Shown: piece after piece, positions 3,646-27,529 of the stretch
Position numbering within the stretch: position 1 is the stretch's first letter
Layout: every line of letters begins with the position of its first letter
Origin: a virus
IMG/VR virus record: IMGVR_UViG_3300005962_000004
Span: 1-32,369 of that record
Reading direction: 5' to 3' (one strand)
Length of the DNA stretch: 32,369 nt
Translations under genes and position numbers: made by a program
Notes under the pieces: generated by a model
Seen by the model: the letters and a program-made list of their open reading frames with translations, nothing else
What the model was told of the DNA's origin: nothing
Databases searched by the model: none

Positions 3646-3977
3646 GTGCGCGAATTATCATCAAATACAACAACCTGCCCCGCATTGCAGCGCAACTGCC
3701 GGAAGTGGTATCTGCCATCATCCACAAGGCGGCATTTGATGTTGAGGCAAACGCGAAGGACATTGTACCCGTTGATACCGGGAAACTTAAAAATTCCATA
3801 ACTTGCGAATTCCCATCGCAGACAATAGCCATCATCGCTCCGCACACGGACTATGCCATTTATGTCGAGATCGGCACGCGCCGTCAGCGGGCCAAACCCT
3901 ACATGCGTCCGGCAGCCGAAAAGGTTGCGCCCGCATTCTTCGCCGCTATGCAGCGGCTGGAGGAACGGCTACAATGA
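3642..3977 (+). CDS. HK97 gp10-like tail completion protein
   Basis: A 111-residue protein. The signature 'VPVDTGKLKNSI' followed by 'YAIYVEIGTRRQRAKPYMRPA' is the characteristic pattern of the HK97 gp10 family, which works at the head-tail neck. The start at 3642 is fixed by the ATGA overlap with the preceding gene; its own stop overlaps the next start in the same way. The two genes on either side (stopper side and tail terminator) support the neck role. Confidence 0.85.
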   Translation: MSARIIIKYNNLPRIAAQLPEVVSAIIHKAAFDVEANAKDIVPVDTGKLKNSITCEFPSQTIAIIAPHTDYAIYVEIGTRRQRAKPYMRPAAEKVAPAFFAAMQRLEERLQ

Positions 3978-4369
3978 CCGTTCTTAATGCCGACCGTTGG
4001 CTGTATGACAAACTGACAACCGACAGCCAGTTATCGGCTGCGCTCGGCGGGCGTGTCTATGTGGACGTTGCACCACAAGGTGAGCAGTATCCGCTGGCGA
4101 TATTGACCCTGGTAACAGCACAGCAAATTGGCAACCTGTTCGCTGACAGGGTGATGGATGCCGAGACCTGGCAGGTGGCTGTCTGGACAGATAAGCCGAG
4201 CTATATGGCCATCGAGCCAATTGCAGACCGTATCCGTGAAATCCTGCATAAAGCAAGCGGAACGGGCGTACTGGCAGCGATATATCAGGAGCAACGACGG
4301 ATAGCGGAGCAGGATGGTGATAAGGAGTACAAGGCAATCATCCTGGAATTCAAAATCTTTACTCAGTAG
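3974..4369 (+). CDS. Tail terminator / tail completion protein
   Basis: A 131-residue protein starting at an ATGA overlap. 'WLYDKLTTDSQLSAALGGRVY' followed by 'APQGEQYPLAILTLV' and a C-terminal strand 'YKAIILEFKIF' is the general pattern of DUF3168/gpU-like terminators: N-terminal helix, 'YP' turn, then a beta sheet. These cap the tail tube and join it to the neck. The major tail protein follows directly, as usual. Confidence 0.7.
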   Translation: MTVLNADRWLYDKLTTDSQLSAALGGRVYVDVAPQGEQYPLAILTLVTAQQIGNLFADRVMDAETWQVAVWTDKPSYMAIEPIADRIREILHKASGTGVLAAIYQEQRRIAEQDGDKEYKAIILEFKIFTQ

Positions 4370-4378
4370 GAGTGTCAA

Positions 4379-5353
4379 ATGGCAGAAAAAGCATCTATTT
4401 TCCAAACTGTACAAATCGGCATTGAATCCACGCCGGGGACGGCAGTGCCTGCTAACCGCAAGCTGACATCGCTTTCAATCATTCCGGCCATCAAGACGGA
4501 TAGCAAGACGCTTAAACCAATTGGTAGCAAATATCCATCGCTGGCGGTCGTGAACAAGGAATGGGTGGAAGCAAAAGTTGAGGCCGAACAGTTGACGTAT
4601 AACGAGATTTTGTATCCACTCGTGTCGCTACTGAGCCAGCCAACACCGGTACAGCAAGGCACTACTACGGCTTACAAGTGGACGTTCACCAGCAATTCAT
4701 TTGGCGAGGATGCCGGAAAAACGCTCACGGTTGAACAGGGTGACGCATTAACTGCATGGCGTTCTGCCGGCGTAAAGGTCAAGGGGCTGGAATTTACGTT
4801 CAAACGTGACGAAGTCTCGGTATCCGGCGACGCAATCGGGCAGCCGCTTGAAACCGGCATCGCCATGACCGCAAACCCAACCAGTATGACACCGAAACCG
4901 GTACTGCCCGTCCATCTCAGCTTATATATGGCAGACAGTCTTGCCGGCTTAGACAGTGCACAGCCGCTGACACGCGGTTTCTCGCTGACATGGGGGTTAA
5001 CCGATAAAAACACGCTGGCATGGCCAATCGGGCAAAAACCGGTGCTGATTGAGAGTGAGCCAAAACTGGAGGCGAAAATCTCGCTTGCTACTGATGCAAT
5101 TGGGCTTGGGCTGATTACGCAGATGCGCAACGCGGCCAAAAAGTGGTTTCGCATCAAGGCAGTTGGAGACGCAATCGAGGGTACATACAATCACACTTTT
5201 CAGATTGACTTCGTGGCAAATATCACAGAAGCGGGCGAATTTTCGGATAGCGATGGCATCTACTTAGTGGAGTGGACGCTTGTTGGCGTCCATGATTCTG
5301 CCTGGGGCAAGGCGTTTGAGATTAACGTCATTACAGATGTCCAAACGCTATAG
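4379..5353 (+). CDS. Major tail (tube) protein
   Basis: A 324-residue beta-rich protein beginning 'MAEKASIFQTVQIGIESTPG', typical of siphovirus tube proteins ('...G.E..PGTAVPANRKLTSLS'). It is longer than small tube proteins, which is common for this family. Repeated strands around 'VEWTLVGVHDSAWGKAFEINV' close the fold. It should polymerise into the tail tube around the tape measure. GGAG precedes the ATG. It stands between the tail terminator and the chaperone genes, so the assignment is firm from order plus sequence type. Confidence 0.85.
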   Translation: MAEKASIFQTVQIGIESTPGTAVPANRKLTSLSIIPAIKTDSKTLKPIGSKYPSLAVVNKEWVEAKVEAEQLTYNEILYPLVSLLSQPTPVQQGTTTAYKWTFTSNSFGEDAGKTLTVEQGDALTAWRSAGVKVKGLEFTFKRDEVSVSGDAIGQPLETGIAMTANPTSMTPKPVLPVHLSLYMADSLAGLDSAQPLTRGFSLTWGLTDKNTLAWPIGQKPVLIESEPKLEAKISLATDAIGLGLITQMRNAAKKWFRIKAVGDAIEGTYNHTFQIDFVANITEAGEFSDSDGIYLVEWTLVGVHDSAWGKAFEINVITDVQTL

Positions 5354-5879: not shown

Positions 5880-8088
5880 ACTGCAGGTGGTAATTGGTGC
5901 GGATGTGAATGCTGCCGTACAGGGCATCCGTGGGGCGATGGGACAAATCCAGCAAGCCGGAATGACTGCACTTGGAGTATTTACTGGCAATCTGCTCTAT
6001 GGTGCGGTGCAGCAGGCCGGCCAGGCACTCATTGGCTTGGGACAGGATGCTCTACAATCCACAGTTAGTTGGGAACGGTTACGCTTTTCGATTGAATCGC
6101 TAATGGCCAGCGAGTTGCGGGCGAAAGATTCGACATTATCAGTGGCCGATGCACTTAATCTGGCCAAAGGACAGGCCGCTGATACGCTTAAATGGATTCA
6201 GGATTTGGCTATCATCTCGCCGTTTCCGACGGAAGTAGTTGCACAAGTTTTTCAGATGCAAATGCGCATGGGCCAAACAAGCGACCAGGCCAAAACGCTG
6301 ACGAAAGCTTTGCTGGATATGGGCGCGGCGACTGGCCTGAGCGGCGAAAATCTGTACGGTGCAGGCCTGGCCCTATCACAAATCGGCGGGAGCGCAAAGC
6401 TCTCCGCTCAGGATCTGCATCAATTGATAAATGCCGGGATTCCGGTAAATGAAATTTTGCAAGAAATGGGAATTACGTGGGACCAACTCGGGAAAAAAGC
6501 GGTATCAGGCCAGGCATTTATAGACGCTTTTATTAAAAAAGCGGGTGAATTTTCCGGGTCTGTTGACCGCATGCAAGGTTCGTGGTCTGCGATGCTTGGC
6601 GCACTGAGTGACGCGAAGGACGTTGGCTTGCGGGAATTGTTCGCAGGCGTGTTTACGGCGTTGCAGCCGGTGGTACAGCAATTCTCAGATTGGCTGCTTG
6701 GCCCAGGAATGGAAAAGTTGAGGCAACTCGGTGCTGATTTGGGGATGCTTGCTGTTCGGCTCATTGCAATTGGCAAGGCACTATTTACGTCAGGGGCTTT
6801 TTCCCAGCAATTTAATGTCGCGCTTGGGCGCCTCTCGCCAACGCTACGCGAAATCTGGGAAAAAATCTCGCCATTCATTCAGCAGGGATTGGCTTGGATT
6901 TCGGAGCACAAGCAAGAGGTTATTGCTGCGCTGACCGGTATGGCGATAGCATTTGGTGCATTAACCATCATCGGGGCGATTTCGGGGCTGATTACTGCGT
7001 TGGCCAATCCTATCACGCTAATCATTGCACTGGCAGGTTTGCTGGCAGTGGCATGGCAAAAGGACTGGGGTGGGATCCAGAGGAAGACAGCAGCGGTATG
7101 GGCATGGCTTAAACAAACATTTATACAGGTGACATCGTGGATAAGAATCAATATCCCAACTGTGCTGAAGACGTTGAAAAAGACATGGGATACCATCTGG
7201 GAAGGTATCCAATCGGTTGTCTCTACGGTGCTATCAGCAATAGCAAGCGTTATGCGGGCGTGGCAGACGGCAATGAAGGGTGACTGGCGTGCGTTTGGGA
7301 CGCACTTACAGCGAACCTGGGACGCCGTCTGGGGAAGTATCCAGGCAGTCGTTTCAGCGGTACTGTCAGTGATGATGAGCATTATGCGTGCATGGCAAGC
7401 CGCGATGAAGGGCGACTGGCGTACATTTGGGGTATACCTACTGCAGGCTTGGGATGCCGCCTGGGAAGGTATCCACACGGTCGTCTCGGCGATGCTGTCA
7501 GCAATAATGAGCATTGTGCAAGGATGGCAAGCTACATTACAGGGTGGCTGGTATGCATTTGGTGCATATTTACAGCAGGTGTGGAATAACGCGTGGAATT
7601 CGCTGGCACAGATTGTTAGCAATGCATGGGCGACGGTCAAGAATGCAGTAGAAAATCTAATAACAAACATTATCACATTTTTCATGGAAACCAACTGGAT
7701 AGAGCTTGGTGAAAGTATCATTAACGGCATAATAAATGGAATTCTAAGCAATATAGAGGCACTCATAGATGCCATATTAGATGCGGTACAAGCAATGTGG
7801 GATGCTGTAACGGATTTTTTGGGAATCGAATCGCCGTCTAAATTGTTTCGTGATGAAATCGCTGGGAATATCATGGAAGGATGGGCGCAGGGTATCCGGG
7901 CGCATATCCCGCGATTAGAAACAACAATGATTTACACGGCTAAACACATGACGTTTGCGGCTCAGCCTGCACAACCGACACGGGCAACTGGGACTGAAAT
8001 GAGTGCAATTACATTCTATGCTCCAGTGACATTCCGCGTCGAAAATGAACAGACGATGAGAAATATATTAAAGGAGCTACGAAAATGA
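5860..8088 (+). CDS. Tail tape measure protein
   Basis: A 742-residue, mainly helical protein. The N-terminus has the conserved tape measure start ('AAELQVVIGADVNAAVQGI'), then a region like 'GASGLSGENLYGAGLALSQIG' type segments with 'LHQLINAGIPVNEILQEMG' around residues 180-230. Residues ~354-400 hold two hydrophobic helices, and residues ~443-574 are three tandem 44-residue repeats starting with Trp-Asp. The C-terminal 'FLGIESPSKLFRDEI' is a typical tape measure end. It sets tail length; by the usual 1.5 Å per residue rule this would be roughly 110 nm. It starts inside the T frame with GGAG upstream. Confidence 0.9.
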   Translation: MPIRAAELQVVIGADVNAAVQGIRGAMGQIQQAGMTALGVFTGNLLYGAVQQAGQALIGLGQDALQSTVSWERLRFSIESLMASELRAKDSTLSVADALNLAKGQAADTLKWIQDLAIISPFPTEVVAQVFQMQMRMGQTSDQAKTLTKALLDMGAATGLSGENLYGAGLALSQIGGSAKLSAQDLHQLINAGIPVNEILQEMGITWDQLGKKAVSGQAFIDAFIKKAGEFSGSVDRMQGSWSAMLGALSDAKDVGLRELFAGVFTALQPVVQQFSDWLLGPGMEKLRQLGADLGMLAVRLIAIGKALFTSGAFSQQFNVALGRLSPTLREIWEKISPFIQQGLAWISEHKQEVIAALTGMAIAFGALTIIGAISGLITALANPITLIIALAGLLAVAWQKDWGGIQRKTAAVWAWLKQTFIQVTSWIRINIPTVLKTLKKTWDTIWEGIQSVVSTVLSAIASVMRAWQTAMKGDWRAFGTHLQRTWDAVWGSIQAVVSAVLSVMMSIMRAWQAAMKGDWRTFGVYLLQAWDAAWEGIHTVVSAMLSAIMSIVQGWQATLQGGWYAFGAYLQQVWNNAWNSLAQIVSNAWATVKNAVENLITNIITFFMETNWIELGESIINGIINGILSNIEALIDAILDAVQAMWDAVTDFLGIESPSKLFRDEIAGNIMEGWAQGIRAHIPRLETTMIYTAKHMTFAAQPAQPTRATGTEMSAITFYAPVTFRVENEQTMRNILKELRK
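7186..7581 (+). repeat. Three tandem 132-bp repeats in the tape measure gene
   Basis: Units start at 7186, 7318 and 7450, each beginning with TGGGA (Trp-Asp) and encoding 44 residues with a 'MKGDW..FG' core; a degenerate start of a fourth unit is at 7582. The units differ at many silent and replaced positions, so this is an old duplication kept in frame. Confidence 0.85.
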
Positions 8089-9986
8089 TTTGGAAAATTA
8101 AATCCTTCGACGGATATGTGTTTGGCAATGCATTTCTCGCGGCTGAAGACAATCCGTTGTTACAACCCGCGGTAAGCAGTAGGATGATAAAACGCGGTGC
8201 AGTTGTCGCGCCTGCGCCGGGCGGAATGACACGAGAAGGCGATTACTTGATTGTTAGCGTGGTGGGCCTGAATGAGATTAGCCGCGAGGCGATGATTAAT
8301 GCAATTGACGTAACTAATCCAAATTTGCGCGAGTTGATAGGCACTGACGATAACAATGTGGATTGGTATGTTATGGCGCGCCCGATACGGCATGTATACG
8401 ACAGAGGCCGCGATGTCCTGACGTTTGAGGTACCGGACAGGATATGGCGGCGCAAAAATAGCAGTAGCGTATCGTGGAAGGTGACGGCAAGTGGGCAGAG
8501 CCATACACTGGCAATTGGCGGCAATCGTCCGGCCCAACCGGTCATCAGTATTACGCCCCGCAGGGCAAAAGCGGGTGGTTTTGCATATGCACGCTGGATA
8601 CTGGCTTATAATCCAACCAGCAATGTCATGCTAAATTATCCATTACACATCTGTAATGCCAATCTGGATACGGCAGCGCTGGTCAGAGCAGGCAAATGCC
8701 AGGCAGATGGCGATGACATCTGGGTTATTGTAGATGGTCATCCGGTAAGTCGCTGGCTGGTTGGTATGAACACAACCACCACAAGTGTTATTGCGACAAT
8801 CAGCTTTGCGCCAAAAATCGAAATGACACTTGATACTGCCATTGCTGGCAGTGGAACGGTCAGTGAAATTGTGCTTGAGAAAACAAATGCTAATGCTGCC
8901 GCGCTAAAACGGTTAGCGGCAGTACGGAACAAAATGGTGCTGATTGACAACGAGGTCTTTACGTTTAGCGGTGTAGACAAGGCCAATTACAAATTAACTG
9001 GCGTAACACGGGCACAGCGTGGGACATCAATGGCATCTCACGCAGTAGGAGCGATTGTTCGCTGGATACAGCATGACATCTGGCTAGTATACGGCAATAG
9101 CACCATGAGGGCACCGGAAGAAGACATAGCGAAAAAACCGATTTGGAATCTATCAGCATCTACTGCGACATCATGGAGCTATACTCAGTATTATGATGCG
9201 GATTATCCCACACGGCCAGGGACGTGGACGCCATCTGTTATACAGAGTACAGGGGGGAAAAGCCGTTGGTACGGCGGAGATAAGGGAGCAGACGCCGAGC
9301 CGGCTACGCATATGGGGATGCAAGCAAAAGCATACCAGGTGGGAAATACGTGGAAATCGGAGACTGCGCAGTTAGAGTGGCGATTTTACCATCCTGGCGG
9401 AGTGACCGCTGTCAGCGCGACTGGGAAGAAATACAAAAAATTGGCGAGTTTTGGCGCAATTGCAGGATTGCAGAAGAAGAATACCAATGCATTTACAACA
9501 GTCTGGACGGAAACAGCTCCGGGGATGTCTGCTGTGTGGACGCCGTTTGCACGGCCAAATGTCTCACTGGGCGGGACATTTACGGCATTACGATTTTATT
9601 TTCAGTGCACATTGGCGGCGGCGGCGCACAATGAGGCGGATTTGCAAATTGATACACTTACGCTTACATTGGACAGCTCGAAAATCCCGCAGGTGACAGT
9701 AGGAGTTGAGACTGATAATTATTGGATGGATACGATACTGCGTGTGCGCGAGACGGGCGATGAAATCCGGCTGAGGGGCATATGCCCGATTAATAAGACG
9801 CTGATAGTGGATTGTGAGAACAAAACCGTAACATTGGATGGCGAAAATGCATTTGGATTTTTATCGCTTAACAGCGCGCGGAGTGCGTGGCTGGATTTAC
9901 CCCCCGGTACGGCAACACTGATAATGAGAGATAATGGCATTACAGACGTAGATATTACTGTCGAGTGGGAAGACCGACAGGTATGA
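8085..9986 (+). CDS. Distal tail protein (Dit-like) with a large insertion
   Basis: A 633-residue protein. It opens with 'MIWKIKSFDGYVFG' and a Dit-like beta region to about residue 130 ('WYVMARPIRHVYDRGRDVLTF'), and it closes with 'WLDLPPGTATLIMRDNG' which matches the C-terminal galectin-like end of siphovirus tail proteins. Between them is a large insert of ~350 residues, rich in Thr, Ser and Trp, with carbohydrate-binding-like composition ('WSYTQYYDADYP'). Dit proteins form the hub ring at the tail tip. It overlaps both neighbours by ATGA. The insert's role in host binding is inference. Confidence 0.7.
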   Translation: MIWKIKSFDGYVFGNAFLAAEDNPLLQPAVSSRMIKRGAVVAPAPGGMTREGDYLIVSVVGLNEISREAMINAIDVTNPNLRELIGTDDNNVDWYVMARPIRHVYDRGRDVLTFEVPDRIWRRKNSSSVSWKVTASGQSHTLAIGGNRPAQPVISITPRRAKAGGFAYARWILAYNPTSNVMLNYPLHICNANLDTAALVRAGKCQADGDDIWVIVDGHPVSRWLVGMNTTTTSVIATISFAPKIEMTLDTAIAGSGTVSEIVLEKTNANAAALKRLAAVRNKMVLIDNEVFTFSGVDKANYKLTGVTRAQRGTSMASHAVGAIVRWIQHDIWLVYGNSTMRAPEEDIAKKPIWNLSASTATSWSYTQYYDADYPTRPGTWTPSVIQSTGGKSRWYGGDKGADAEPATHMGMQAKAYQVGNTWKSETAQLEWRFYHPGGVTAVSATGKKYKKLASFGAIAGLQKKNTNAFTTVWTETAPGMSAVWTPFARPNVSLGGTFTALRFYFQCTLAAAAHNEADLQIDTLTLTLDSSKIPQVTVGVETDNYWMDTILRVRETGDEIRLRGICPINKTLIVDCENKTVTLDGENAFGFLSLNSARSAWLDLPPGTATLIMRDNGITDVDITVEWEDRQV

Positions 9987-13710: not shown

Positions 13711-14067
13711 CTAAATTCCCAATTTGCTGAGTGCTTCCGCGAGCCGCTCCGCCGCCGGCCCAACACCTTCGGCGGATTGATATGCTTCAGCCAGTTGGCT
13801 GGCAAGCTCACGGAGCGCGGCTAAAACTTCAGACATCTCGACTTTTTCAGTTACCACGCCCAGGCCGGCGCAGTCGGGGCACGTAGTCTCCTCGCTGGCC
13901 GGCAGGTCGGCTGCCCAGACTGGCTCTTCGCCAGGAGTTGGCAGTCTGCCGTACTCCTGCTTGAACGCCAACGCCCATCTCCAGTACTCAGCCCAGATTG
14001 GGGGTTGGACGACCCCCTCACCTTTGCAGGTGGGGCAGGTTGTTTCTTTTACAATGTAAATGGTCAT
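13711..14067 (-). CDS. DnaJ-type zinc-finger protein, unknown
   Basis: A 118-residue protein with two CxxCxGxG motifs: Cys11/Cys14 ('CPTCKGEG') and Cys63/Cys66 ('CPDCAGLG'), together enough for one zinc site like half of the DnaJ Cys-rich domain. Between them is a Trp/Pro-rich stretch and after them a helical tail ('LRELASQLAEAYQSA'). It is the last gene of the first minus-strand operon and its start overlaps the stop of the preceding gene (ATGA). Function unknown; a small zinc-binding adaptor is a reasonable guess. Confidence 0.7.
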   Translation of the reverse strand: MTIYIVKETTCPTCKGEGVVQPPIWAEYWRWALAFKQEYGRLPTPGEEPVWAADLPASEETTCPDCAGLGVVTEKVEMSEVLAALRELASQLAEAYQSAEGVGPAAERLAEALSKLGI

Positions 14068-14423
14068 TCTGTCCTCCTTTTGCTGGAACGCTTAGGGCGC
14101 CCGCCGCGTTTGCCATTCTCGGCGGATGCTCGTGCCTTGCGGGGGCTTTTAATCCTGCCGAGTGTCGCGGCGGCGACGCTGACGGGAATTGGGAATAGGG
14201 AAGCAGCGGTACCAATCCACTGCTTTAGTAGCTCAAGCTCGTCCGGGGTAACCTGAACAACCTGATACCCCATCAAGAGCCATGACTCGATATCGAGCGG
14301 CATCCCGTCCTCCAAGACAACAACAGGTTGGTTGTAACTGGAGGATGGATGCGCTGTTGTTATAGTTGCTTGGATTGTATGGCGATTGCCGTCGCCGAGA
14401 ATATCAACATAAGAGAGTATCAT
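14064..14423 (-). CDS. Unknown protein with basic C-terminal tail
   Basis: A 119-residue protein. The first half is beta-like ('MILSYVDILGDGNRHTIQ', 'YNQPVVVLEDGMPLDIE') and the last ~20 residues are basic with 'NGKRGGRPKR', similar to AT-hook or ribosome-like tails that bind nucleic acid. ATG 14423 is chosen because AAAGGAG stands 9 nt upstream and the conserved structured element ends there; a longer upstream frame would run through that element. It is coupled to the next gene by ATGA. Confidence 0.65.
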   Translation of the reverse strand: MILSYVDILGDGNRHTIQATITTAHPSSSYNQPVVVLEDGMPLDIESWLLMGYQVVQVTPDELELLKQWIGTAASLFPIPVSVAAATLGRIKSPRKARASAENGKRGGRPKRSSKRRTE

Positions 14424-14533
14424 TGTTTTCTCCTTTCTGCCCCTTTGGCCGGGGCAGGGTATTAGAATCTGGTGGTTCTTCTGCCCACCTGGCTGCTTGC
14501 CATCTTGCGATGGCGAGCAGATGCTGGACAGAA
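14424..14533 (-). promoter_or_regulatory. Structured leader element, copy 1
   Basis: 110 nt filling the gap between two minus-strand genes. In minus-strand order: CCAGCATC; hairpin 1 (14493-14504 with 14509-14520, GCAA loop); the invariant CAGGTGGGCAG (14481-14491); then hairpin 2 CTGCCCC/GGGGCAG (14437-14457) with loop GGCCAAA, just before AAAGGAG. It is the most divergent of the four copies, yet hairpin 1 keeps its pairing. Confidence 0.75.
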
Positions 14534-14908
14534 TCAATCCAGGATCACACTCTTGCAATATGGACAGATAGTGTGATCCTCTGCTTTTTCAATACTGTGT
14601 CCGCACTCTGGGCACAATGGGGGTACCTCCACTCCCTCATCCTGGACAAGAACGTAAATGCCATTCTTGCCCAGGGGACGATATCCGCTGTGGCTAATGC
14701 CATCGCCATCCCACACCTCCACGACTGCATATGGAGTTTTGGGTTTCAGCAGATAGCTCGCCACCCAACGGAATCCGTTGTCCCTATCACTGCCGGCGAT
14801 TTTGAGCGCCTCAATTTTTCCTTCGACTACTCGCCAGCCGGCACTAAAACCGCCAGAGCCAAAATATTGATGGCCATTGCGGCAAACCAGCTCTTTTACC
14901 TTTTGCAT
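14534..14908 (-). CDS. C-terminal zinc-ribbon protein, unknown
   Basis: A 124-residue protein. Four cysteines near the end, Cys99/Cys102 ('CPECG') and Cys115/Cys118 ('CPYCK'), form a rubredoxin-like zinc ribbon; Cys9 and His12 near the N-terminus might add another site. The middle is beta-rich ('FRWVASYLLKPKTPYAVVEV'). AGGAAG lies upstream of the ATG, directly after element copy 2. Likely a nucleic-acid or protein binding accessory factor; no family recognised. Confidence 0.65.
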   Translation of the reverse strand: MQKVKELVCRNGHQYFGSGGFSAGWRVVEGKIEALKIAGSDRDNGFRWVASYLLKPKTPYAVVEVWDGDGISHSGYRPLGKNGIYVLVQDEGVEVPPLCPECGHSIEKAEDHTICPYCKSVILD

Positions 14909-15018
14909 TTTTACTTCCTGCCCCTGTTAGGCCGGGGCCAGCCGTTAGGATTTTGGGGGCAATCCTGCCCACCTGACCGCCCACCAGGCGACTGGTGGGC
15001 GGATGCTGGGCGGGATAG
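14909..15018 (-). promoter_or_regulatory. Structured leader element, copy 2
   Basis: 110 nt between two minus-strand genes. Hairpin 1 is 11 perfect pairs (14977-14987 with 14992-15002), with CCGCCC/GGGCGG where other copies have CTGCCC/GGGCAG. The invariant 11-mer is at 14965-14975. Hairpin 2 is GCCCC/GGGGC (14920-14938) with loop GGCCTAACA, next to the AGGAAG ribosome binding site. Confidence 0.8.
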
Positions 15019-15252
15019 CTATTTACCCTCTTTGGCAGTGGCGCGTTCCCGCGCCTTAATGTACTCTTCGAGTTCTCGAAGAGTATAAAACCTTAAAATG
15101 TGATTCTGATGCGGGTAAGACCTATCGGGGTGTACGTGGTAGGAGGGTTTTGCCCCCCATCCATCCTCCGGCAGGACGGTCTTGGCAGAGGTGACCGCCC
15201 AGGACATCCCTAACTTCCACAGACGTTTCGACAATGAATCTTTTTTGGACAT
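15019..15252 (-). CDS. Small unknown protein
   Basis: A 77-residue basic protein: 'MSKKDSLSKRLWKLGMSW', a middle with several His/Tyr/Pro ('SYHVHPDRSYPHQNHI') and a C-terminal helix ('LRELEEYIKARERATAK'). AAAGGAG stands ahead of the ATG and element copy 3 directly before it. It has no recognised domain. It lies between the 86-residue paralogue and the zinc-ribbon gene in the first minus-strand operon. Confidence 0.6.
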   Translation of the reverse strand: MSKKDSLSKRLWKLGMSWAVTSAKTVLPEDGWGAKPSYHVHPDRSYPHQNHILRFYTLRELEEYIKARERATAKEGK

Positions 15253-15363
15253 GTCTCTCTCCTTTCTCCCCCTGTAAGGCCGGGGGTCGCCGTATGGATT
15301 TTGGGGGCGATTCTGCCCACCTGACTGCCCACCAGGTGCCTGATGGGCAGATGCTGGGCGGAA
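15253..15363 (-). promoter_or_regulatory. Structured leader element, copy 3
   Basis: 111 nt between two minus-strand genes. Hairpin 1: 15325-15335 with 15340-15350, 11 pairs including one G-U. Invariant 11-mer at 15313-15323. A weak middle hairpin TCGCC/GGCGA follows, then hairpin 2 CCCCC/GGGGG (15268-15286) with loop GGCCTTACA, immediately before AGAAAGGAG. Very similar to copy 4. Confidence 0.85.
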
Positions 15364-15624
15364 TCAATGCCAGGGATCGTATAAGAGTCGCCCGTCTTTG
15401 GGGACATAAAGGGTACCGGGGTAATAGAAGTACTTCACATGGACGCCCCAGCCATCTTTGTACCTCCGTACTGAGTATTCCGGGCGGGAGTACTCGCCAT
15501 GATTCAGATAATACGTCCCGGTACGCCGGAATACACCCGGTCGTTGCGCCGATTCTACCAATTGCGGGATAGAACGGAGGTAATCCAGTGCTTCTTTCTT
15601 CGTGCGGAAGGATAAGGTTTTCAT
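15364..15624 (-). CDS. 86-residue unknown protein, paralogue A
   Basis: First gene of the first minus-strand operon. It begins 'MKTLSFRTKKEALDYLRSIP' (a strand plus helix) and has a Tyr-rich C-terminal half ending 'GRLLYDPWH'. The gene at 18696-18956 encodes a closely similar protein of equal length ('MKTLTFRTKSEALNYLRSIP' start, same last 11 residues), and the promoter and palindrome upstream are also shared. AAAGGAG precedes the ATG. No family recognised; the small size, dual copies and regulated promoter suggest a host-interaction or anti-defence type gene, which is inference. Confidence 0.7.
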   Translation of the reverse strand: MKTLSFRTKKEALDYLRSIPQLVESAQRPGVFRRTGTYYLNHGEYSRPEYSVRRYKDGWGVHVKYFYYPGTLYVPKDGRLLYDPWH

Positions 15625-15670: not shown

Positions 15671-15698
15671 ATTATACCCAACGTTAGGTTTCTGTCAA
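15671..15698 (-). promoter_or_regulatory. Promoter of the first minus-strand operon
   Basis: On the minus strand TTGACA (15693-15698) and TATAAT (15671-15676) are separated by 16 bp. Both boxes are consensus. The upstream end of the -35 box touches the 37-nt palindrome. Confidence 0.85.
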
Positions 15699-15735
15699 GT
15701 GACGATTGTCATATGTTTTATATGACATTCGTCAC
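15699..15735. promoter_or_regulatory. Palindromic operator, copy A
   Basis: Arms of 16 nt, GTGACGATTGTCATAT and ATATGACATTCGTCAC, with a 5-nt centre (GTTTT) and one mismatch between arms. It abuts the -35 box of the minus-strand promoter. The same palindrome with a 4-nt centre is at 19025-19060. A dimeric or tetrameric regulator is implied. Confidence 0.8.
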
Positions 15736-16156: not shown

Positions 16157-16881
16157 GCAAAGTCTTAAAACGTATTTCTACGTACCTCTTTGGCGCATTT
16201 GGCATTGCGGTTTTTGGATTGGTCATCAGCCTGACCTATTCCGCTCTGGCAGTAATTTTCCCCGCTGATCTCATAAACCACATCTGGGGACTTGTGCTTT
16301 TTGACATCTCGGCGGTTGCCTGGGGACTGGCCTATGTCTATTTGAGCGAGACAATAGCACAGTACGCAATCGCCGCACTTGGATTTTTGACTGGCTTTGG
16401 TGGCACAATCATCATGATTGCCGCGGCTGTGCTGATGTCGAGTGGTCTGGCTGCAGGCGCAGACATCTCGCGCTGGATAAGCTACGGCTTTATCGTTGTT
16501 GCCGTCGTCCACCTCATCTTGCTCTATGCTCACCAGGCTGCCAAACCAGCCGTCCATGAGCAGATCGAGGTTGGCGTTGCACGCGGTGGGATTGTCAGTA
16601 CGGCGATTCGCCAAGCCGTGACTGAGCTGGAACAGCAGCAAGAGGAACTGGCGCGTGCAATCTATGGCGAGATCGTCAATCGCGTCAAGCGGGAGCTTGG
16701 GCTTGATGGCACGTCTGCTCCGCGCATGCGATTAGCCATCCCACCGCCTCCGCCGCACATCATAGCCCCCGCCACTCCTGCGCCTCCCGCGTCCATGATG
16801 CCATCTGTACAGCGTCCAATTGTGCCACGCGCGAGTGATGATGGCAATAAGCCATCGCCTTCAGGTGACGGAAAAAACTGA
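16153..16881 (+). CDS. Four-helix membrane protein with proline-rich tail
   Basis: A 242-residue protein. Four hydrophobic helices lie at about residues 12-36, 42-65, 69-97 and 107-125. They are followed by a coiled coil ('VTELEQQQEELARAIYGEI') and a Pro/Ala-rich disordered tail with 'PPPPP'. The tail should face the cytoplasm if the N-terminus does. No enzyme motif seen. In a phage accessory locus, beside an SH3 lipoprotein, it may act at the host envelope, for instance in exclusion of other phages; this is inference. Confidence 0.65.
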   Translation: MSKVLKRISTYLFGAFGIAVFGLVISLTYSALAVIFPADLINHIWGLVLFDISAVAWGLAYVYLSETIAQYAIAALGFLTGFGGTIIMIAAAVLMSSGLAAGADISRWISYGFIVVAVVHLILLYAHQAAKPAVHEQIEVGVARGGIVSTAIRQAVTELEQQQEELARAIYGEIVNRVKRELGLDGTSAPRMRLAIPPPPPHIIAPATPAPPASMMPSVQRPIVPRASDDGNKPSPSGDGKN

Positions 16882-16884
16882 GTA

Positions 16885-16926
16885 GCTCGCCGGCGGTGCG
16901 TACGCGCCCTCGCGCTGCCGGCGAGC
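16885..16926 (+). terminator. Hairpin after the membrane protein gene
   Basis: Perfect 10-bp arms GCTCGCCGGC (16885-16894) and GCCGGCGAGC (16917-16926) begin 3 nt after the stop codon. The 22-nt loop holds the GTG start of the next gene. No T tract. It may limit readthrough or mask the start. Confidence 0.5.
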
Positions 16927-17234
16927 TGGCACCGAATGAATTAGTGGCGTGGCTGAACGAACTTTCCGCCTCCGCCACTAACCGTGCCACTAACGCCGCC
17001 ACTAACGCCACTAACGGCAAAACTGCCGGCATGTGGCTGGAGATTGTAAAGGTCAAGGGTCGCCTTTACGTTCGCATTATGCGATGGCGACCGGGCAAGG
17101 GGAAGGAATTTGTCAAATATCTGGGTGCATTGAAGACAGTCAAAGAGCAAGGAGGTTATTATGCAGCCGAAGCGGAGCGGCTTGAGCGCAAGAGACTTGC
17201 AAGAGCTGGCCGAGAGGCTTGCATTGATGCTTAA
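16896..17234 (+). CDS. Unknown protein with Ala-Thr-Asn repeats
   Basis: A 112-residue frame from GTG 16896. The N-terminal part ('NELVAWLNELSASATN') leads into four Ala-Thr-Asn repeats coded by GCCACTAAC, then a basic beta domain ('MWLEIVKVKGRLYVRIMRW', 'KEFVKYLGALKTVKEQ') that could bind nucleic acid. The start is uncertain: GTG 16896 has no good ribosome binding site and lies in a hairpin loop; ATG 17031 would give only the basic domain. The last 74 nt overlap the next gene. Family not recognised. Confidence 0.5.
   Translation: MRTRPRAAGELAPNELVAWLNELSASATNRATNAATNATNGKTAGMWLEIVKVKGRLYVRIMRWRPGKGKEFVKYLGALKTVKEQGGYYAAEAERLERKRLARAGREACIDA
16974..17015 (+). repeat. GCCACTAAC cluster 1 (four copies)
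   Basis: Exact 9-mers at 16974, 16986, 16998 and 17007, spaced 12, 12 and 9 nt, all in frame as Ala-Thr-Asn. An inverted TTAGTGGC is at 16941-16948. Confidence 0.9.
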
Positions 17235-17403
17235 TCATGCAGGAGCATTCCCGGTCAGTGGAGTAACAGTAATTGAAGGATTTTTAATTTTCGCCGTAAA
17301 AATCCCCGGGCACTCCTTGAATTATGACAGGACGTCCAGGGTGTTATTGCTTGATGGAAAGGATGTGACGCTGTGGGCAGAACAAGAATCGCAATCATCT
17401 TGA
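17161..17403 (+). CDS. Small unknown protein
   Basis: An 80-residue protein with a helical first half ('ARDLQELAERLALMLNHAG') and a beta second half ('VTVIEGFLIFAVKIPG', 'RVLLLDGKDVTLWAE'). AGGAGG precedes ATG 17161 at 5 nt, a stronger start than that of the gene it overlaps. Its end overlaps the GTG of the SH3 lipoprotein. No family recognised. Confidence 0.6.
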   Translation: MQPKRSGLSARDLQELAERLALMLNHAGAFPVSGVTVIEGFLIFAVKIPGHSLNYDRTSRVLLLDGKDVTLWAEQESQSS

Positions 17404-17762
17404 GTACCATTGTGTTAGTGGCATGCCTGCCGCTTAACCGCGCCACTAACTACGCCACTAACTACGCCACTAACTCTGCTACGCCACTAACACCGACAGC
17501 AACTAACGCCACTAACTCTGCTGTGCTACTTACGCGCGCCACTAACATTTGTATTGTGACAGCCTGGTGGCTCAACGTGCGCTCAGGGCCTGGAATCGAG
17601 TATCAAGCGATTGGCCATTATGAGCGCGGTGAGACTGTTATCATCCTGCGTGAGGCTCACGCAAAAGATAATGGAAAATGGGGACACACGGGCAAAGGAT
17701 GGATTAATTTGCGATTTGTTGATTGCCGGCCAGATGTCCCCCTTATAGAGGCCGGCCATTAG
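17373..17762 (+). CDS. SH3-domain lipoprotein (secreted)
   Basis: A 129-residue protein from GTG 17373. The N-terminus has a short basic part, a hydrophobic helix ('IAIILSTIVLVAC') and a lipobox Leu-Val-Ala-Cys with Cys18 as the lipid site. A Thr/Asn-rich linker made of Ala-Thr-Asn repeats follows, then a bacterial SH3 domain ('WLNVRSGPGIEYQAIG', ending with 'KGWINLRFVDC'). It should be anchored outside the cell membrane and bind wall peptide. Phage lipoproteins of this size often block superinfection; that role is inference. It overlaps the preceding gene by 31 nt. Confidence 0.75.
   Translation: MGRTRIAIILSTIVLVACLPLNRATNYATNYATNSATPLTPTATNATNSAVLLTRATNICIVTAWWLNVRSGPGIEYQAIGHYERGETVIILREAHAKDNGKWGHTGKGWINLRFVDCRPDVPLIEAGH
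17442..17546 (+). repeat. GCCACTAAC cluster 2 (six exact copies plus variants)
   Basis: Exact copies at 17442, 17454, 17466, 17483, 17508 and 17538; variants GCAACTAAC at 17499 and GCTACTTAC at 17525. The exact copies are in frame as Ala-Thr-Asn except the copy at 17483, which sits in a shifted phase. An inverted GTTAGTGGC is upstream at 17414-17422. Confidence 0.85.
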
Positions 17763-17769
17763 ACGTTGC

Positions 17770-18582
17770 TTACAGCGCGTCGATACCCATGCGCACAGCG
17801 GCTTGGATGGACACGTTGCGGACAAGTATGTCATTGTCCTTAATACCGAGGATAATAATCTGTTTGGCAGGCGCACCAATGCGTTCCGCCGCCTCTATCG
17901 CGCTTATGCGGCACGATGGGGAATCGCAGCATCGCAGCACGTGTTCCAAAATATGGAGCGCTGGTTCACCGATGAAACCGGCGGCTTTTACAGCCGCCAC
18001 CTGCAAGCGGTGGTCAGGCGACGGCTGCAATAGGGCGCGCTCCAGGATAGGTAGTGCGCGGACACCAAAATAGCCCGCGAACTCCACTGCTAAAGCAGCA
18101 TTATAAATGCTGGCAGTCTGTTGCTGAACAATCTGGAAGGCCTCTTCCTCGCCCTCCAGGTGGTAGCATCCGATAACGGACGCTGCCCACAGTAACGTCC
18201 TTTCGGTCTGGGGATACCCCTGGCGATAGGCCGCCATGATTAACTCGGCTGCCTGGCGCATCCCATCTGCGTCGTCTACCTTCCACGGGCCGGCGACGAC
18301 CGTGTAGCCTGAGGCATCCCAGCCGCCAACATATATTTTACAGTCTCCGACTGGAGAGACAAGGAGGATGTAATCCTCCCTCATTCTTTCACTTCGCTCA
18401 TCCTCCCCCCAATCGTCCGCCTCGCCCCACAAGTCCGCGGGGTCCCACAAGGAGGCTGATCCTCGAAGCGGAGCATTAAGGACATAATGTCCTTGCTCGT
18501 CCTGCGTCAAGAACGAGCCAGCCTTCCAAGAGTACATCGCCCCCTCCCTGTCTTGCACGACATCAAAAGCTAAATATTCCAT
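17770..18582 (-). CDS. HEAT-repeat protein
   Basis: A 270-residue protein. The N-terminal ~125 residues are acidic and beta-like with Trp-Gly-Glu-Asp clusters ('DLWGEADDWGEDERSE'). From about residue 150 there are four helical repeats of ~32 residues: 'AALAVEFAGYFGVRALPILE', 'VAAVKAAGFIGEPALHILEH', 'ISAIEAAERIGAPAKQIIIL', 'VSIQAAVRMGIDAL'. This is the HEAT/PBS-lyase pattern, a protein-binding scaffold. It is the second gene of the second minus-strand operon, separated from the first by element copy 4. Partner unknown. Confidence 0.7.
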   Translation of the reverse strand: MEYLAFDVVQDREGAMYSWKAGSFLTQDEQGHYVLNAPLRGSASLWDPADLWGEADDWGEDERSERMREDYILLVSPVGDCKIYVGGWDASGYTVVAGPWKVDDADGMRQAAELIMAAYRQGYPQTERTLLWAASVIGCYHLEGEEEAFQIVQQQTASIYNAALAVEFAGYFGVRALPILERALLQPSPDHRLQVAAVKAAGFIGEPALHILEHVLRCCDSPSCRISAIEAAERIGAPAKQIIILGIKDNDILVRNVSIQAAVRMGIDAL

Positions 18583-18695
18583 GTTTTTTCTCCTTTCTCC
18601 CCCTGTCAGGCCGGGGGCCGCCGTATAGATTTTGGGGCGATTCTGCCCACCTGACTACCCACCACCTTGCGGTGATGGGCAGATGCTGGACAGAA
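18583..18695 (-). promoter_or_regulatory. Structured leader element, copy 4
   Basis: 113 nt between two minus-strand genes. Hairpin 1: 18655-18666 with 18671-18682, 12 pairs with two G-U and a GCAA tetraloop; its inner pairs CACC/GGTG replace CAGG/CCTG of copy 3. Invariant 11-mer at 18643-18653. Hairpin 2: CCCCC/GGGGG (18599-18617) with loop GGCCTGACA before AGAAAGGAG. Confidence 0.85.
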
Positions 18696-18956
18696 TCAAT
18701 GCCAGGGATCGTATAAGAGTCGCCCATCTTTGGGGGCATAAAAGGTGCCGGGGTAGTAGAAGTATGCCACGTGGATCCCCCAGCCATCTTTATAGCGACG
18801 TACTGAGTATTCGGGGGAGGAGTACTCGCCGTGATGCAGACAATATACCCCGGCGGGCCAAAATACACCCGGTCGTTTCGTTGATTCCTCCAACTCCGGA
18901 ATGGAGCGGAGATAGTTCAGTGCTTCGGATTTGGTACGGAAAGTCAGGGTTTTCAT
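18696..18956 (-). CDS. 86-residue unknown protein, paralogue B
   Basis: First gene of the second minus-strand operon and a close relative of the protein at 15364-15624: same length, same start and identical last residues 'KDGRLLYDPWH', with most changes conservative. One difference is 'GVYCLHHGEY' where paralogue A has 'GTYYLNHGEY'. AAAGGAG precedes the ATG. The whole unit (operator, promoter, gene and element) is duplicated, so the two proteins are likely expressed together. Confidence 0.7.
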   Translation of the reverse strand: MKTLTFRTKSEALNYLRSIPELEESTKRPGVFWPAGVYCLHHGEYSSPEYSVRRYKDGWGIHVAYFYYPGTFYAPKDGRLLYDPWH

Positions 18957-18996: not shown

Positions 18997-19024
18997 ATTA
19001 TACCTATCGTTAGGTTTGTGTCAA
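18997..19024 (-). promoter_or_regulatory. Promoter of the second minus-strand operon
   Basis: On the minus strand TTGACA (19019-19024) and TATAAT (18997-19002), 16 bp apart. It is nearly identical to the promoter at 15671-15698 and also touches the palindrome. Confidence 0.85.
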
Positions 19025-19060
19025 GTGACGATTGTCATATGTTTATATGACATTCGTCAC
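19025..19060. promoter_or_regulatory. Palindromic operator, copy B
   Basis: Arms GTGACGATTGTCATAT and ATATGACATTCGTCAC with a 4-nt centre (GTTT). It lies between divergent promoters: the minus-strand -35 box is adjacent and the plus-strand -35 box is 11 bp away. The ribbon-helix-helix gene at 19145 is the natural candidate for its binding protein. Confidence 0.8.
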
Positions 19061-19071
19061 CTGTTTATGCA

Positions 19072-19099
19072 TTGACAAATCTGTACAATCCGTTATAAT
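19072..19099 (+). promoter_or_regulatory. Promoter of the regulator and replication genes
   Basis: TTGACA (19072-19077) and TATAAT (19094-19099) with a 16-bp spacer; both consensus. It would drive the regulator at 19145 and the replication genes beyond. Confidence 0.85.
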
Positions 19100-23244: not shown

Positions 23245-25098
23245 ATGTCCATCACTCTTACCGACCTGCACATCCCAGAGCACGAAATGAGAATTCTGGC
23301 CCAGGCGTACACCATCAATGACGCCTGGCTCGGCGATCTGGAATTGATAGCCGCTGCAATTGATACCAATCAACCGCCAAGCCGCATTCCGGCTACACAA
23401 CCCTGGGCCTTGATTGCCGAACAACTACTCAGTAATGGGACGATGGGGGAGGGCATTACCCCGGCGGCTCTACGCAATGCGGTAATGATGGCTATCGGGC
23501 GAGCGATTGAGTGGCGACGCAATGCCGGCAAGCGCCCCAAAATAGCGAACAAACTAAATGCGCTGAGAGCAGCACGGGTGATCAATCCATATTTGGAGTC
23601 GCCGGACGAAGACCTAAAGGCACGGATTACTGCAACATTGATGGACAGAGATACCCCTACACTGGAGCGGAAGCAAATCGCAGAAGCACTATTGCTTGAC
23701 TGGCTGGGAGCACATGGGCGGTTTATCCGCTCTGCCGACGGATTTGTCTATTATCTTTACGAAGAAACGCACAAATTGTACGATTTAGGCTCTACTACAT
23801 GGGCCGCATGGCTACACGCATTGACGGGAATCAACCCAGCATTGACAGATTACAAGGTGCTACTCAACGCTACTCAAAGCGCAGCGCACAATCAAGGTCA
23901 GGAACACCCTGTGGTAAAGCTGGCATATTGGGACAACACCGCAAAAATTTTGCGCGTAACCCGTTTTGATGGCGTAACGTATGTATTAAACGGCGATGAA
24001 ATACGCCAAGAAAACAATGGCGATGGGCCAATCATCTTTTTTGATGCGCCGACTTGGCAAGCGTACGAACCCGATTTCGATGCCGGCTATGACGATTTCA
24101 TCGCACCGCTTACCCGACAGACGTGGAGCGATACAACTCAATGGGCGGCGGCTGTTTGGATACTTTCGCTTTTTTTCACAGAGCTGTGCCCAACGCGCCC
24201 AATCGCGGTATTTTTGGGCGAAAAAGGCAGTGGGAAAAGCATGACCTTGCGCATGATTTTGCGCTTGCTTTTTGGAAACATGGCTGAACTATTAACTACT
24301 CCAGACAAACCTGACGACTTTATGGTGAGTGCCTACCACAATCACATTCTGGCACTCGATAATTTTGACGGCTTTCAGGAATGGATGCGTGACCGCTTGG
24401 CCGGCTTGGCGACTGGCGTCGAAATGCAAATGCGTACTTACTACACTAACAAAGACCTGACTCTTGTAAAGTTCCGCACCTGGATCGCTGTAACTGCTCG
24501 CCAGCCGGACACTCTCAAGCGTGACGACTTGGCAGATCGATTGTTGATTTTCAAGCTGGAACGCATCAAAGATGAGCAACGCATGCGTGAGGGGCATTTC
24601 CTCGATGCAATTGCCGCAACCCGCAATCGCTGGTGGGGGGCGCTGCTGAACCTGCTAAATCAGATAGTCGCCTATTTGCGCAACAATGATTTGCCGGCCA
24701 CCAGTTCGCTGCGTATGGCGGATTGGGAGGTTTTTGGCCGTGCAGTATCCCAGATGATGGGAAAAGCAGAAGAATGGAGAGTGATTGTGACCGAGTTGAA
24801 AAAGGCACAAGGTGAATTTTTGGCAGAGGACGTCATCGTTGAGGCTATCCAAAAATGGCTGGAAAACCCGGCTAACGTCAACCGCAGGGTGCTGGCGCGT
24901 GATTTGTACGCTGAATGCGAAGCAATTCTTTTTAAGGGCAACAAGCCAGATAGCGATTGGCCAAGAAGTGTCATGTCGTTCGTCAAACGCTTGCAAAATG
25001 TAAGCGAGTACTTAAAAATCGAATTTGGAATGATTACAACTATGGAGCGGCACAGGACATGGTACATTTTCACAGGGAGCGAGGAGGTGAGGAGGTGA
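23245..25098 (+). CDS. P-loop replicative helicase/ATPase (SF3/D5-like)
   Basis: A 617-residue protein. The N-terminal ~300 residues are helical with no clear motif. Walker A 'GEKGSGKS' is at residues 325-332, followed by 'MILRLLFGNMAEL', a Walker B-like 'HILALDNFDGF' near 367-377 and a sensor-like 'RTWIAVTARQPDTLKRDDLADR'. This is the layout of phage/plasmid primase-helicase ATPases without the primase. The primase is coded separately 293 nt downstream, so the two probably work together at the fork. The last codons overlap the first origin-like repeat. Confidence 0.75.
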   Translation: MSITLTDLHIPEHEMRILAQAYTINDAWLGDLELIAAAIDTNQPPSRIPATQPWALIAEQLLSNGTMGEGITPAALRNAVMMAIGRAIEWRRNAGKRPKIANKLNALRAARVINPYLESPDEDLKARITATLMDRDTPTLERKQIAEALLLDWLGAHGRFIRSADGFVYYLYEETHKLYDLGSTTWAAWLHALTGINPALTDYKVLLNATQSAAHNQGQEHPVVKLAYWDNTAKILRVTRFDGVTYVLNGDEIRQENNGDGPIIFFDAPTWQAYEPDFDAGYDDFIAPLTRQTWSDTTQWAAAVWILSLFFTELCPTRPIAVFLGEKGSGKSMTLRMILRLLFGNMAELLTTPDKPDDFMVSAYHNHILALDNFDGFQEWMRDRLAGLATGVEMQMRTYYTNKDLTLVKFRTWIAVTARQPDTLKRDDLADRLLIFKLERIKDEQRMREGHFLDAIAATRNRWWGALLNLLNQIVAYLRNNDLPATSSLRMADWEVFGRAVSQMMGKAEEWRVIVTELKKAQGEFLAEDVIVEAIQKWLENPANVNRRVLARDLYAECEAILFKGNKPDSDWPRSVMSFVKRLQNVSEYLKIEFGMITTMERHRTWYIFTGSEEVRR

Positions 25099-25366
25099 TC
25101 AGCGTTTTCCGTAAACTTTTTGCAACGCGAGGAGGTGAGGAGGTGAAAGGCGTTTTCCATAAATTTTCTGTTGCATGCAAACGCTTGGAGTTTTGCAAAA
25201 AGTTTTTAAAAGTGGCGTAGGACCTCCTCACCTCCACCATGAAACGATGTAAAACGCGAGGAGGTGAGGAGGTGAAAAGCGTTTTTCATAAAATTTCTGT
25301 AGCATGCGAACTTTTGAAGTTTGCAGAAATTTTTTGAAAATGGCGTTGGACCTCCTCACCTCCTCC
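25081..25366 (+). repeat. Origin-like inverted-repeat block
   Basis: The 18-mer GAGGAGGTGAGGAGGTGA occurs at 25081-25098, 25129-25146 and 25258-25275. Its inverse ACCTCCTCACCTCC is at 25222-25235 and 25350-25363. Copies 2 and 3 with their inverses make two similar ~107-nt units, each closable into a stem of 14 or more pairs with AT-rich inside; copy 1 is a shortened unit. The gap between helicase and primase has no credible gene. Replication origin is the best reading. Confidence 0.65.
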
Positions 25367-25391
25367 AAAATAGAATCTCTGGAGGCGAGCT

Positions 25392-26365: not shown

Positions 26366-26371
26366 ATGGAT

Positions 26372-27529
26372 ATGCCGAGGAAAAATGAGCACGAGGGAGT
26401 TTCTGGCCTTGCCCCCGCGTCTCAAAATGTAAATGTGCGCGTCCTACGTACCCGCCTTACTCAGTTGCGTGAAAAGTGGAAAACTGAAACGGGTCAACTT
26501 TGGCAATTGGGCAAACACCGGTTGCTGATTGGAGATTGTACAGTGCATGAGGATGTGGGGCGGCTGATGGGTGGAGATATTTCCGTTTTGATACATGCTG
26601 ATCCTCCTTATGGGATGGGGAAGGAATCTGACGGAGTAGAGAACGATAATCTGTATGGGGAGAAATTGGACGATTTTCAGATGAAATGGTGGAAAGCGTG
26701 CCGCCCGTTTCTGGCTGATAATGGGAGCGTGTACATCTGGGGACGGGCCGAAAATTTGTGGCGTTTGTGGTATCGCCGGCTGAAAGACAGCGAACGGCTG
26801 ACGTTCCGCAATGAGATTGTATGGTACAAGCCGGGAGGGGTGAGCGGCATGAAAAGCAACACGCATAGGCAGTACCCGACTGCCACAGAAAGATGTTTGT
26901 TTTTTATGCTTGGTGAGCAGGGATTCAACAACAATGCTTCTAATTATTGGGAGGGATGGGAAGGAATTCGTTCTTATCTTGAGGGGGAGGCAAGAAAAAT
27001 CGGATTAAACAACAAGAAACTGCGGGAGATATGCGGAGTAAGCTCAATGTACTCTCATTGGTTTACGAAAAGCCAGTGGACTCTTATCCCGGAGCACCAC
27101 TATCTGAAATTGCAGGCTGCAAGTAGGAATGCATTTACAAAAGATTATGATGCCTTTAAAAAAGAGTACGATGCCCTTAAAAAAGAGTACGATGCCCTTA
27201 AAATGGAATTTTATAAATCCAGAGCATATTTTGATAACACGCATGACAGCATGACAGATGTTTGGATTTTTCCCCGCGTGGCTGGCGCTGAAAGATGGTT
27301 TCACCCTGCTGCCAAACCGGTTGAGCTTTCTGAGAGAGTAATTAAATCGAGTAGCCGGGAAGGCGACGTAGTATTAATTCCATTTGCTGGCTCTGGTCCT
27401 GATTTTATCGCGTGTGAGCGTACTGGCCGTCTGGCGCGAGGTCTGGAAATCCGGCCAGATTTTTCTGCTGCAATTCTGGAACGGTTTCACGCCGCTTTCC
27501 CTGACGAGGAAATAAGGCTTCTTGAATGA
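26372..27529 (+). CDS. DNA methyltransferase (N6-adenine or N4-cytosine type)
   Basis: A 385-residue protein. 'HRLLIGDCTV' leads to the catalytic motif 'DPPYG' near residue 77, and the AdoMet-binding motif comes last ('LIPFAGSGPDF', then 'RTGRLARGLEIRPDF'), the beta-class order. A target-recognition part lies between, with an inserted lysine/Asp/Tyr heptad repeat at 27143-27205. It should methylate phage DNA against host restriction. ATG 26372 is preferred over 26366 because the -10 box is so close; no ribosome binding site is present for either. Confidence 0.85.
   Translation: MPRKNEHEGVSGLAPASQNVNVRVLRTRLTQLREKWKTETGQLWQLGKHRLLIGDCTVHEDVGRLMGGDISVLIHADPPYGMGKESDGVENDNLYGEKLDDFQMKWWKACRPFLADNGSVYIWGRAENLWRLWYRRLKDSERLTFRNEIVWYKPGGVSGMKSNTHRQYPTATERCLFFMLGEQGFNNNASNYWEGWEGIRSYLEGEARKIGLNNKKLREICGVSSMYSHWFTKSQWTLIPEHHYLKLQAASRNAFTKDYDAFKKEYDALKKEYDALKMEFYKSRAYFDNTHDSMTDVWIFPRVAGAERWFHPAAKPVELSERVIKSSSREGDVVLIPFAGSGPDFIACERTGRLARGLEIRPDFSAAILERFHAAFPDEEIRLLE
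27143..27205 (+). repeat. 21-bp tandem repeat in the methyltransferase gene
   Basis: Three units (27143, 27164, 27185); the last two are nearly identical and encode Glu-Tyr-Asp-Ala-Leu-Lys-(Lys/Met), the first Asp-Tyr-Asp-Ala-Phe-Lys-Lys. Heptad spacing suggests a variable-length coiled-coil spacer between domains. Confidence 0.85.

Follow-up and report, generated by a model that had tools for sequence, protein, structure and literature searches.

The window (the whole stretch of DNA analysed here, a virus record of 32369 bp) carries a tailed-phage gene set, with a major capsid protein assigned to phrog_283, a tape measure protein assigned to phrog_58 and a large terminase, and it also codes for an ERCC4-type nuclease, a Sak4-like annealing protein and a Prim-Pol. 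Relatives of the capsid protein were found in at least 86 viral contigs, and it has a 66% match in one genome, G554, of the same phylum as an Anaerolinea assembly, which points to the Chloroflexota as possible hosts. On the minus strand of this phage lie two operons whose genes are separated by four copies of a structured spacer, hereafter the element. The features of the locus are the following:

13711..14067, minus strand: last gene of operon 1, with a weak DnaJ-type CXXCXGXG zinc motif, overlapping the preceding gene and without an element
14064..14423, minus strand: cargo gene, 119 aa, no family
14424..14533, minus strand: element copy 1, with hairpin 1 at 14479-14533, hairpin 2 at 14437-14457 and the Shine-Dalgarno sequence AAAGGAG (fold -49.9 kcal/mol, z -6.0)
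14534..14908, minus strand: cargo gene, 124 aa, with a weak C-terminal zinc ribbon
14909..15018, minus strand: element copy 2, with hairpin 1 at 14962-15016, hairpin 2 at 14920-14938 and a weak Shine-Dalgarno sequence, GGAAG
15019..15252, minus strand: cargo gene, 77 aa, no family
15253..15363, minus strand: element copy 3, with hairpin 1 at 15311-15363 and hairpin 2 at 15268-15286
15364..15624, minus strand: gene A, 86 aa, first gene of operon 1, 79% identical to 18696-18956, without a Pfam, PHROG or NCBIfam family
15671..15698, minus strand: operon 1 promoter, sigma-70-like, TTGACA-16-TATAAT, 12/12
15699..15735, no strand: near-perfect 16+5+16 palindrome adjoining the operon 1 promoter, putative operator
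17770..18582, minus strand: operon 2 cargo gene, 270 aa, HEAT repeats (Pfam HEAT_2, E 1.1e-6)
18583..18695, minus strand: element copy 4, with hairpin 1 at 18641-18695 and hairpin 2 at 18599-18617
18696..18956, minus strand: gene A paralogue by sequence comparison, first gene of operon 2
18997..19024, minus strand: operon 2 promoter, sigma-70-like, TTGACA-16-TATAAT, 12/12
19022..19063, no strand: the same 16+5+16 palindrome, putative operator, between the operon 2 promoter and a divergent plus-strand promoter at 19072-19099

Each copy of the element is 110-113 nt long and fills, without a spare base, the gap between a stop codon (TGA, TAG, TGA and TGA, respectively) and an ATG start codon. The copies occupy all the non-overlapping gaps between minus-strand genes of the two operons, the last gene pair (14064/14067) being overlapped, and a covariance-model search found none elsewhere in the window. 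When the window was compared with itself by blastn, the copies matched one another with E values of 2.7e-26 to 6.8e-15, so that their likeness is not due to chance. Coordinates and blastn thus bear out the original prediction, which placed one element, exactly from stop to start, in every open minus-strand gap. The same prediction held that the genes downstream are unrelated and that the element rather than the protein is conserved, and indeed no two of the four downstream proteins gave a blastp match at E<=1.

The two operons have in common the promoter score (12/12) and the palindromic putative operator, and a block of about 480 bp comprising promoter, 86-aa gene and element is duplicated between them with 83% identity. 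Copies 3 and 4 (15253 and 18583) lie within this block and were spread by its duplication, and the four copies therefore do not represent four independent events. Recombination among the copies is also suggested by conflicting sites, since hairpin 1 groups copies 1 and 4 against 2 and 3 (4/5 sites) and the remainder groups 1 and 2 against 3 and 4 (4/4 sites), a phylogenetic conflict that reaches a Fisher p of 0.048 on 9 sites in all. Gene tails shared upstream of copies 1 and 3/4 were considered as a recombination footprint and discarded, given that 139 of 2116 stop contexts were equally good, and 28 of 2116 when only the last 13 nt were compared, which is not significant. In the related phages G028 and G050, other genes replace the island and the element is absent.

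Hairpin 1 is a single long stem of about 21-22 bp, counting its internal loop. Its foot consists of 9 bp (UUCUGUCCA/UGGGCAGAA), one position of which is C-A in two copies, and is followed by an internal loop in which four invariant nucleotides, GCAU, face five, YCAGG, with one variable position. Above it stand an upper stem of 11-12 bp, half or more of whose positions are variable, and a variable tip loop of 4 nt with one invariant base. Invariant positions thus amount to 8/9 in the internal loop against 11/24 in the upper stem, and the internal loop and the 3′ strand of the foot are the most conserved parts of the hairpin, whereas the tip loop is not conserved. The sequences CCAGCATC and CAGGTGGGCAG, earlier listed as invariant motifs in their own right, are conserved, but each is one side of the foot stem and internal loop rather than a separate motif. 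Likewise, the two GNRA loops that had been noticed do exist, although only in copies 1 and 4. Hairpin 2 has 5-7 bp and stands directly before the Shine-Dalgarno sequence, and its loop starts with GGCC in every copy, as had been predicted. Each copy is on the strand that is transcribed and closes with a ribosome-binding site, the leaders being of the AGAAAGGAG type or AGGAAGTAAAA in the alignment, and in some fold models the Shine-Dalgarno sequence is partly paired.

Each copy folds better than all 200 of its shuffles (z -3.8 to -6.0). In the four-copy alignment, standard pairs fill 97% of the pair cells and 6 of the 26 pairs have changed on both sides, in agreement with the earlier claim that hairpin 1 changes its sequence and keeps its pairing. 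When the 3′ letters were shuffled in 500 trials only 1-3 reached the observed values, and structures slid along the alignment were only 33-50% paired, which together with the 97% figure shows that the hairpin is maintained; the stems are kept while the sequences of the upper stem and tip loop drift. The covariation also claimed for hairpin 2 is present, but at one pair only (C-G to G-C), and hairpin 2 of copy 4, folded alone, does no better than its shuffles. Departures from strict pairing, five G-U cells against three C-A cells in the pair table, give no indication of which strand is under selection. Furthermore, a single event of template switching in DNA is able both to build a stem and to mend it (PMC8794818), so the paired changes are no proof of selection on RNA. 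A sound covariation test would take more than these four copies, which come from a single phage and of which two lie in a recent 480-bp duplication. The source of the paired changes could have been recombination among the copies or a switch of template from one hairpin arm to the other (PMC8794818). The original statement that this is an RNA structure and not just repeated DNA therefore holds as regards a conserved structure, and an RNA rather than a DNA constraint is no more than probable. The element is a real and probably functional two-hairpin spacer.

The full element was confined to one phage in all the searches made. As expected from the original prediction that no named RNA family fits, Rfam 15 gave no match in the window at the gathering threshold, and the best sub-threshold matches of a relaxed search (12-20 bits against thresholds of 36-100) were unrelated. 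A covariance model built from the copies, R1, was run on phage and bacterial genomes as had been proposed, and outside the window it scored highly only in a near-identical contig (L011, genome G001), where copy 4 occurs with an identical score. It found no element in a further 62 viral contigs related through capsid or nuclease (63 with G001), in 13 genomes from the same order as G554 or in 396 Anaerolineae genomes, of which 9 candidates each were scored; with so few candidates per genome, distant relatives may escape such many-genome searches. Nor was the full element found in named phages and plasmids. A DNA pattern for hairpin 1 retrieved from viral contigs only the same phage (L011) and matches that R1 scored as chance. 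Among its three matches in genome contigs, the best (L143, 12 bits) falls within a nadD-like coding sequence and was rejected, and the two remaining have no R1 match.

Hairpin 2 and its ribosome-binding site do recur once outside this phage, as GCCCCGGCCTTACAGGGGCAGAAAGG, directly ahead of the start codon (ATG) of one small gene on L219. This A+T-rich contig belongs to an unrelated phage with different terminase and portal families, and its copy, which as in the window is on the strand opposite to the packaging genes, keeps the invariant GGCC loop start and has no hairpin 1. It is a single match, and by a rough estimate the 18-base pattern alone would be expected to give about one match by chance, but its position before a start codon and five further matching bases make it convincing. 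The presence of the hairpin 2 leader without hairpin 1 indicates that the two hairpins are separable modules and that the element is modular. The leader gave only short chance matches in named phages and plasmids, and none with up to one mismatch in 392 Anaerolineae genomes. As for gene A, its single non-self relative (49%) was found in the integrase-bearing phage contig L217, and none in named phages and plasmids. There, two RBS-proximal hairpins, GGGGCGGAACCCC and AGGGCGGCACCCT, at 4515-4561 and 4955-5000, each followed by GGAGAAAC before an ATG, precede the gene A relative and its neighbour; their sequence differs from that of the window's element.

Repeated palindromic elements of other kinds occur in several of the capsid relatives. 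The strongest case is G033 (L195 and L196, IMGVR_UViG_3300038954_000748), in which we found 25 copies, all on the plus strand, of a three-way junction of about 50-60 nt (for example L195:8298-8355, L195:10549-10604 and L196:3977-4034), formed by P1, P2 and P3 with a GUC..GAC foot and followed by URAA. This junction has no sequence relation to the element of the window, and it matched neither Rfam nor any of 392 Anaerolineae genomes. Some copies lie in gaps before start codons and others within long ORFs. The three stems differ in nearly every copy and yet remain paired (96.6% pairing, 119 two-sided changes), with one G-U in 442 pair cells, and this near absence of wobble pairs suggests maintenance by copying at the DNA level. 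It is a caution for the window's element too: where phage hairpins are repeated, their paired changes may arise in DNA. Two further capsid relatives carry repeats around gene boundaries:

L079 (G039), 4925-5010, 6575-6670, 9400-9465, 16725-16815, 17195-17295 and 17690-17775: about six copies of a palindromic repeat (GTGCCGCACTGGGGTGCGGCGCTCCCAGGCGG)
L098 (G045), 368-502 and 1430-1563, and 2061-2163 and 3911-4013: two more repeat families of about 100-135 nt, at or near gene boundaries

We tentatively read the window's element as a reusable, modular intercistronic mRNA leader, copied with its cargo genes, in which hairpin 1 would act as a T7-type processing and stability signal and hairpin 2 would provide the leader for translation, an interpretation that we regard as quite possible if a little short of probable. 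Cleavage of hairpin 1 at its internal loop by an RNase III-like enzyme of the host would split the polycistronic transcript and leave a protective 3′ hairpin on the upstream message, and the 5′ leader that sets the translation of the next gene would consist of hairpin 2 and the ribosome-binding site. We infer this translational role from the position of hairpin 2 and its reuse in L219, and the processing role from the likeness of hairpin 1 to the T7 signals. Duplication and recombination would copy the unit, each captured cargo gene would receive the same leader, and the cargo genes, each served by one of two co-regulated promoters, would presumably share the same expression. An intrinsic terminator was discarded, since no T run follows the G+C stem and no terminator was called within any copy.

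The RNase III signals of the T7 early region (R0.3-R1.3) are likewise hairpins in the cistron gaps of a phage operon, unrelated to the adjoining genes, and several T7 early gaps, as folded in this analysis, form hairpins of 9-13 bp with short loops. A hairpin in the cistron gap on the transcribed strand is present in 4/4 copies of the element. In signals of this type stems of about one turn enclose an asymmetric internal loop, which in R1.1, located between genes 1 and 1.1 of T7, has 4 nt on one side and 5 nt on the other (PMC6121014). GCAU and YCAGG between the 9-bp and 11-12-bp stems of hairpin 1 resemble this arrangement. This likeness could be a coincidence, given that a C-G pair can form within the loop. 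Unlike the T7 signals, the element has a second hairpin beside the ribosome-binding site and all its copies are homologous 110-mers; its cleavage is a prediction.

The invariant internal loop would suit a regulatory leader as well as it suits processing. In such a leader the GCAU/YCAGG loop, or the GGCC loop of hairpin 2, would be bound by a protein or a trans RNA that switches the translation of all the cargo genes together. The conservation of the internal loop and foot 3′ strand over the tip loop, the recurrence of GGCC in L219 and the partial pairing of the Shine-Dalgarno sequence in some models all fit it. However, no candidate RNA-binding protein or other partner is at hand, copy 2 has the same hairpins despite its weak Shine-Dalgarno sequence, and no element is present in the messages of gene A themselves, and we consider this reading rather unlikely. 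Still somewhat less likely is that the copies are DNA-level linkers, homologous 110-bp segments at gene boundaries through which cargo is swapped by recombination, their hairpins being incidental or kept by template switching. Lambdoid boundary (linker) sequences, shared at module borders, have been proposed as such recombination points, and the element resembles them in this respect, although within a single genome they are not known to recur as structured spacers. The restriction of the copies to module boundaries, the 480-bp duplicated block, the conflict between hairpin 1 and the remainder and the phage's Sak4-like annealing protein are what a linker would lead one to expect. A linker requires identity, however, and not stems of differing sequence that drift in pairs, unless template switching keeps them (PMC8794818), and the mosaic signal comes from 9 sites and no alternative operon arrangement was found.

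It is improbable that the element is a host-derived dispersed palindromic repeat (REP/MITE-like) spread passively in the operons, since passive copies would not always run from stop to start in one orientation with a ribosome-binding site, and the window holds no further copies. Like REP/BIME and other dispersed bacterial palindromic repeats, which can stabilise mRNA, it consists of repeated intergenic stem-loops, but it is not dispersed, has one orientation only and had no host copies in the 396 Anaerolineae sampled. Related phages do carry other repeat families, and Anaerolineae carry dispersed two-hairpin repeats of 100-200 nt, apparently a host repeat family (L166, L173 and L174 of G145, and G325; at least 47 matches in G145 and 12 in G325), with weak R1 scores of 20-28 bits; these share no sequence with the element. 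R1 reached E<=0.01 in 3 of 396 Anaerolineae against 0 of 391 actinobacterial genomes. Matches of R1 to a G+C-rich repeat tract in G158, to a site outside any repeat in G325 and to the host repeat family in G145 were rejected. An attC-like site in a gene-cassette array is very improbable indeed. Repeated units of gene and structured spacer, and a hairpin with a conserved foot and variable top, do recall one, but the RYYYAAC/GTTRRRY core sites gave one accidental match in copy 2 and none in the other three, and no integrase was found among the window proteins scanned. The element also resembles the ESAS of Cluster K mycobacteriophages, a 17-bp inverted repeat with a 13-bp SAS (consensus GGGATAGGAGCCC), in being a repeated inverted repeat of unknown function directly upstream of the start codons of genes of different families (PMC3203893). 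It is longer, has two hairpins and is without a SAS, and membership was rejected as GGGATAGGAGCCC is missing before the start codons of all four copies.

A repeated structured spacer in phage operons is of a kind already known. That the element represents a new class of phage intercistronic RNA, combining an RNase-III-type hairpin with an RBS-proximal one so that each cargo gene becomes a plug-in expression unit, with sequence-unrelated versions evolved by unrelated phages of the same capsid lineage, is conceivable but doubtful. If the mRNA leader reading is true, the spacer and not the gene is conserved, any inserted gene would obtain its own processed message and ribosome-binding site, and the phage would standardise the expression of newly acquired genes. 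The layout would then be an example of T7-style processing in a phage that finds its nearest bacterial match among the Chloroflexota. The four copies are natural variants that form a directly testable set.

Elsewhere in the window, 12-nt repeats (GCCACTAACNNN) at 16961-17025 and 17429-17493, encoding AT(N) repeats, sit within the overlapping plus-strand genes 16896-17234 and 17373-17762. At 25079-25367, in the gap after gene 23245-25098, GCGAGGAGGTGAGGAGGTGA units form part of long repeats, both inverted and direct, that are imperfect and may mark a replication origin or operator. Finally, the protein encoded at 28114-28860 weakly matches the phosphorothioation-defence protein SspD (PADLOC E 1.7e-4), and its gene adjoins a DNA methylase gene at 26366-27529.
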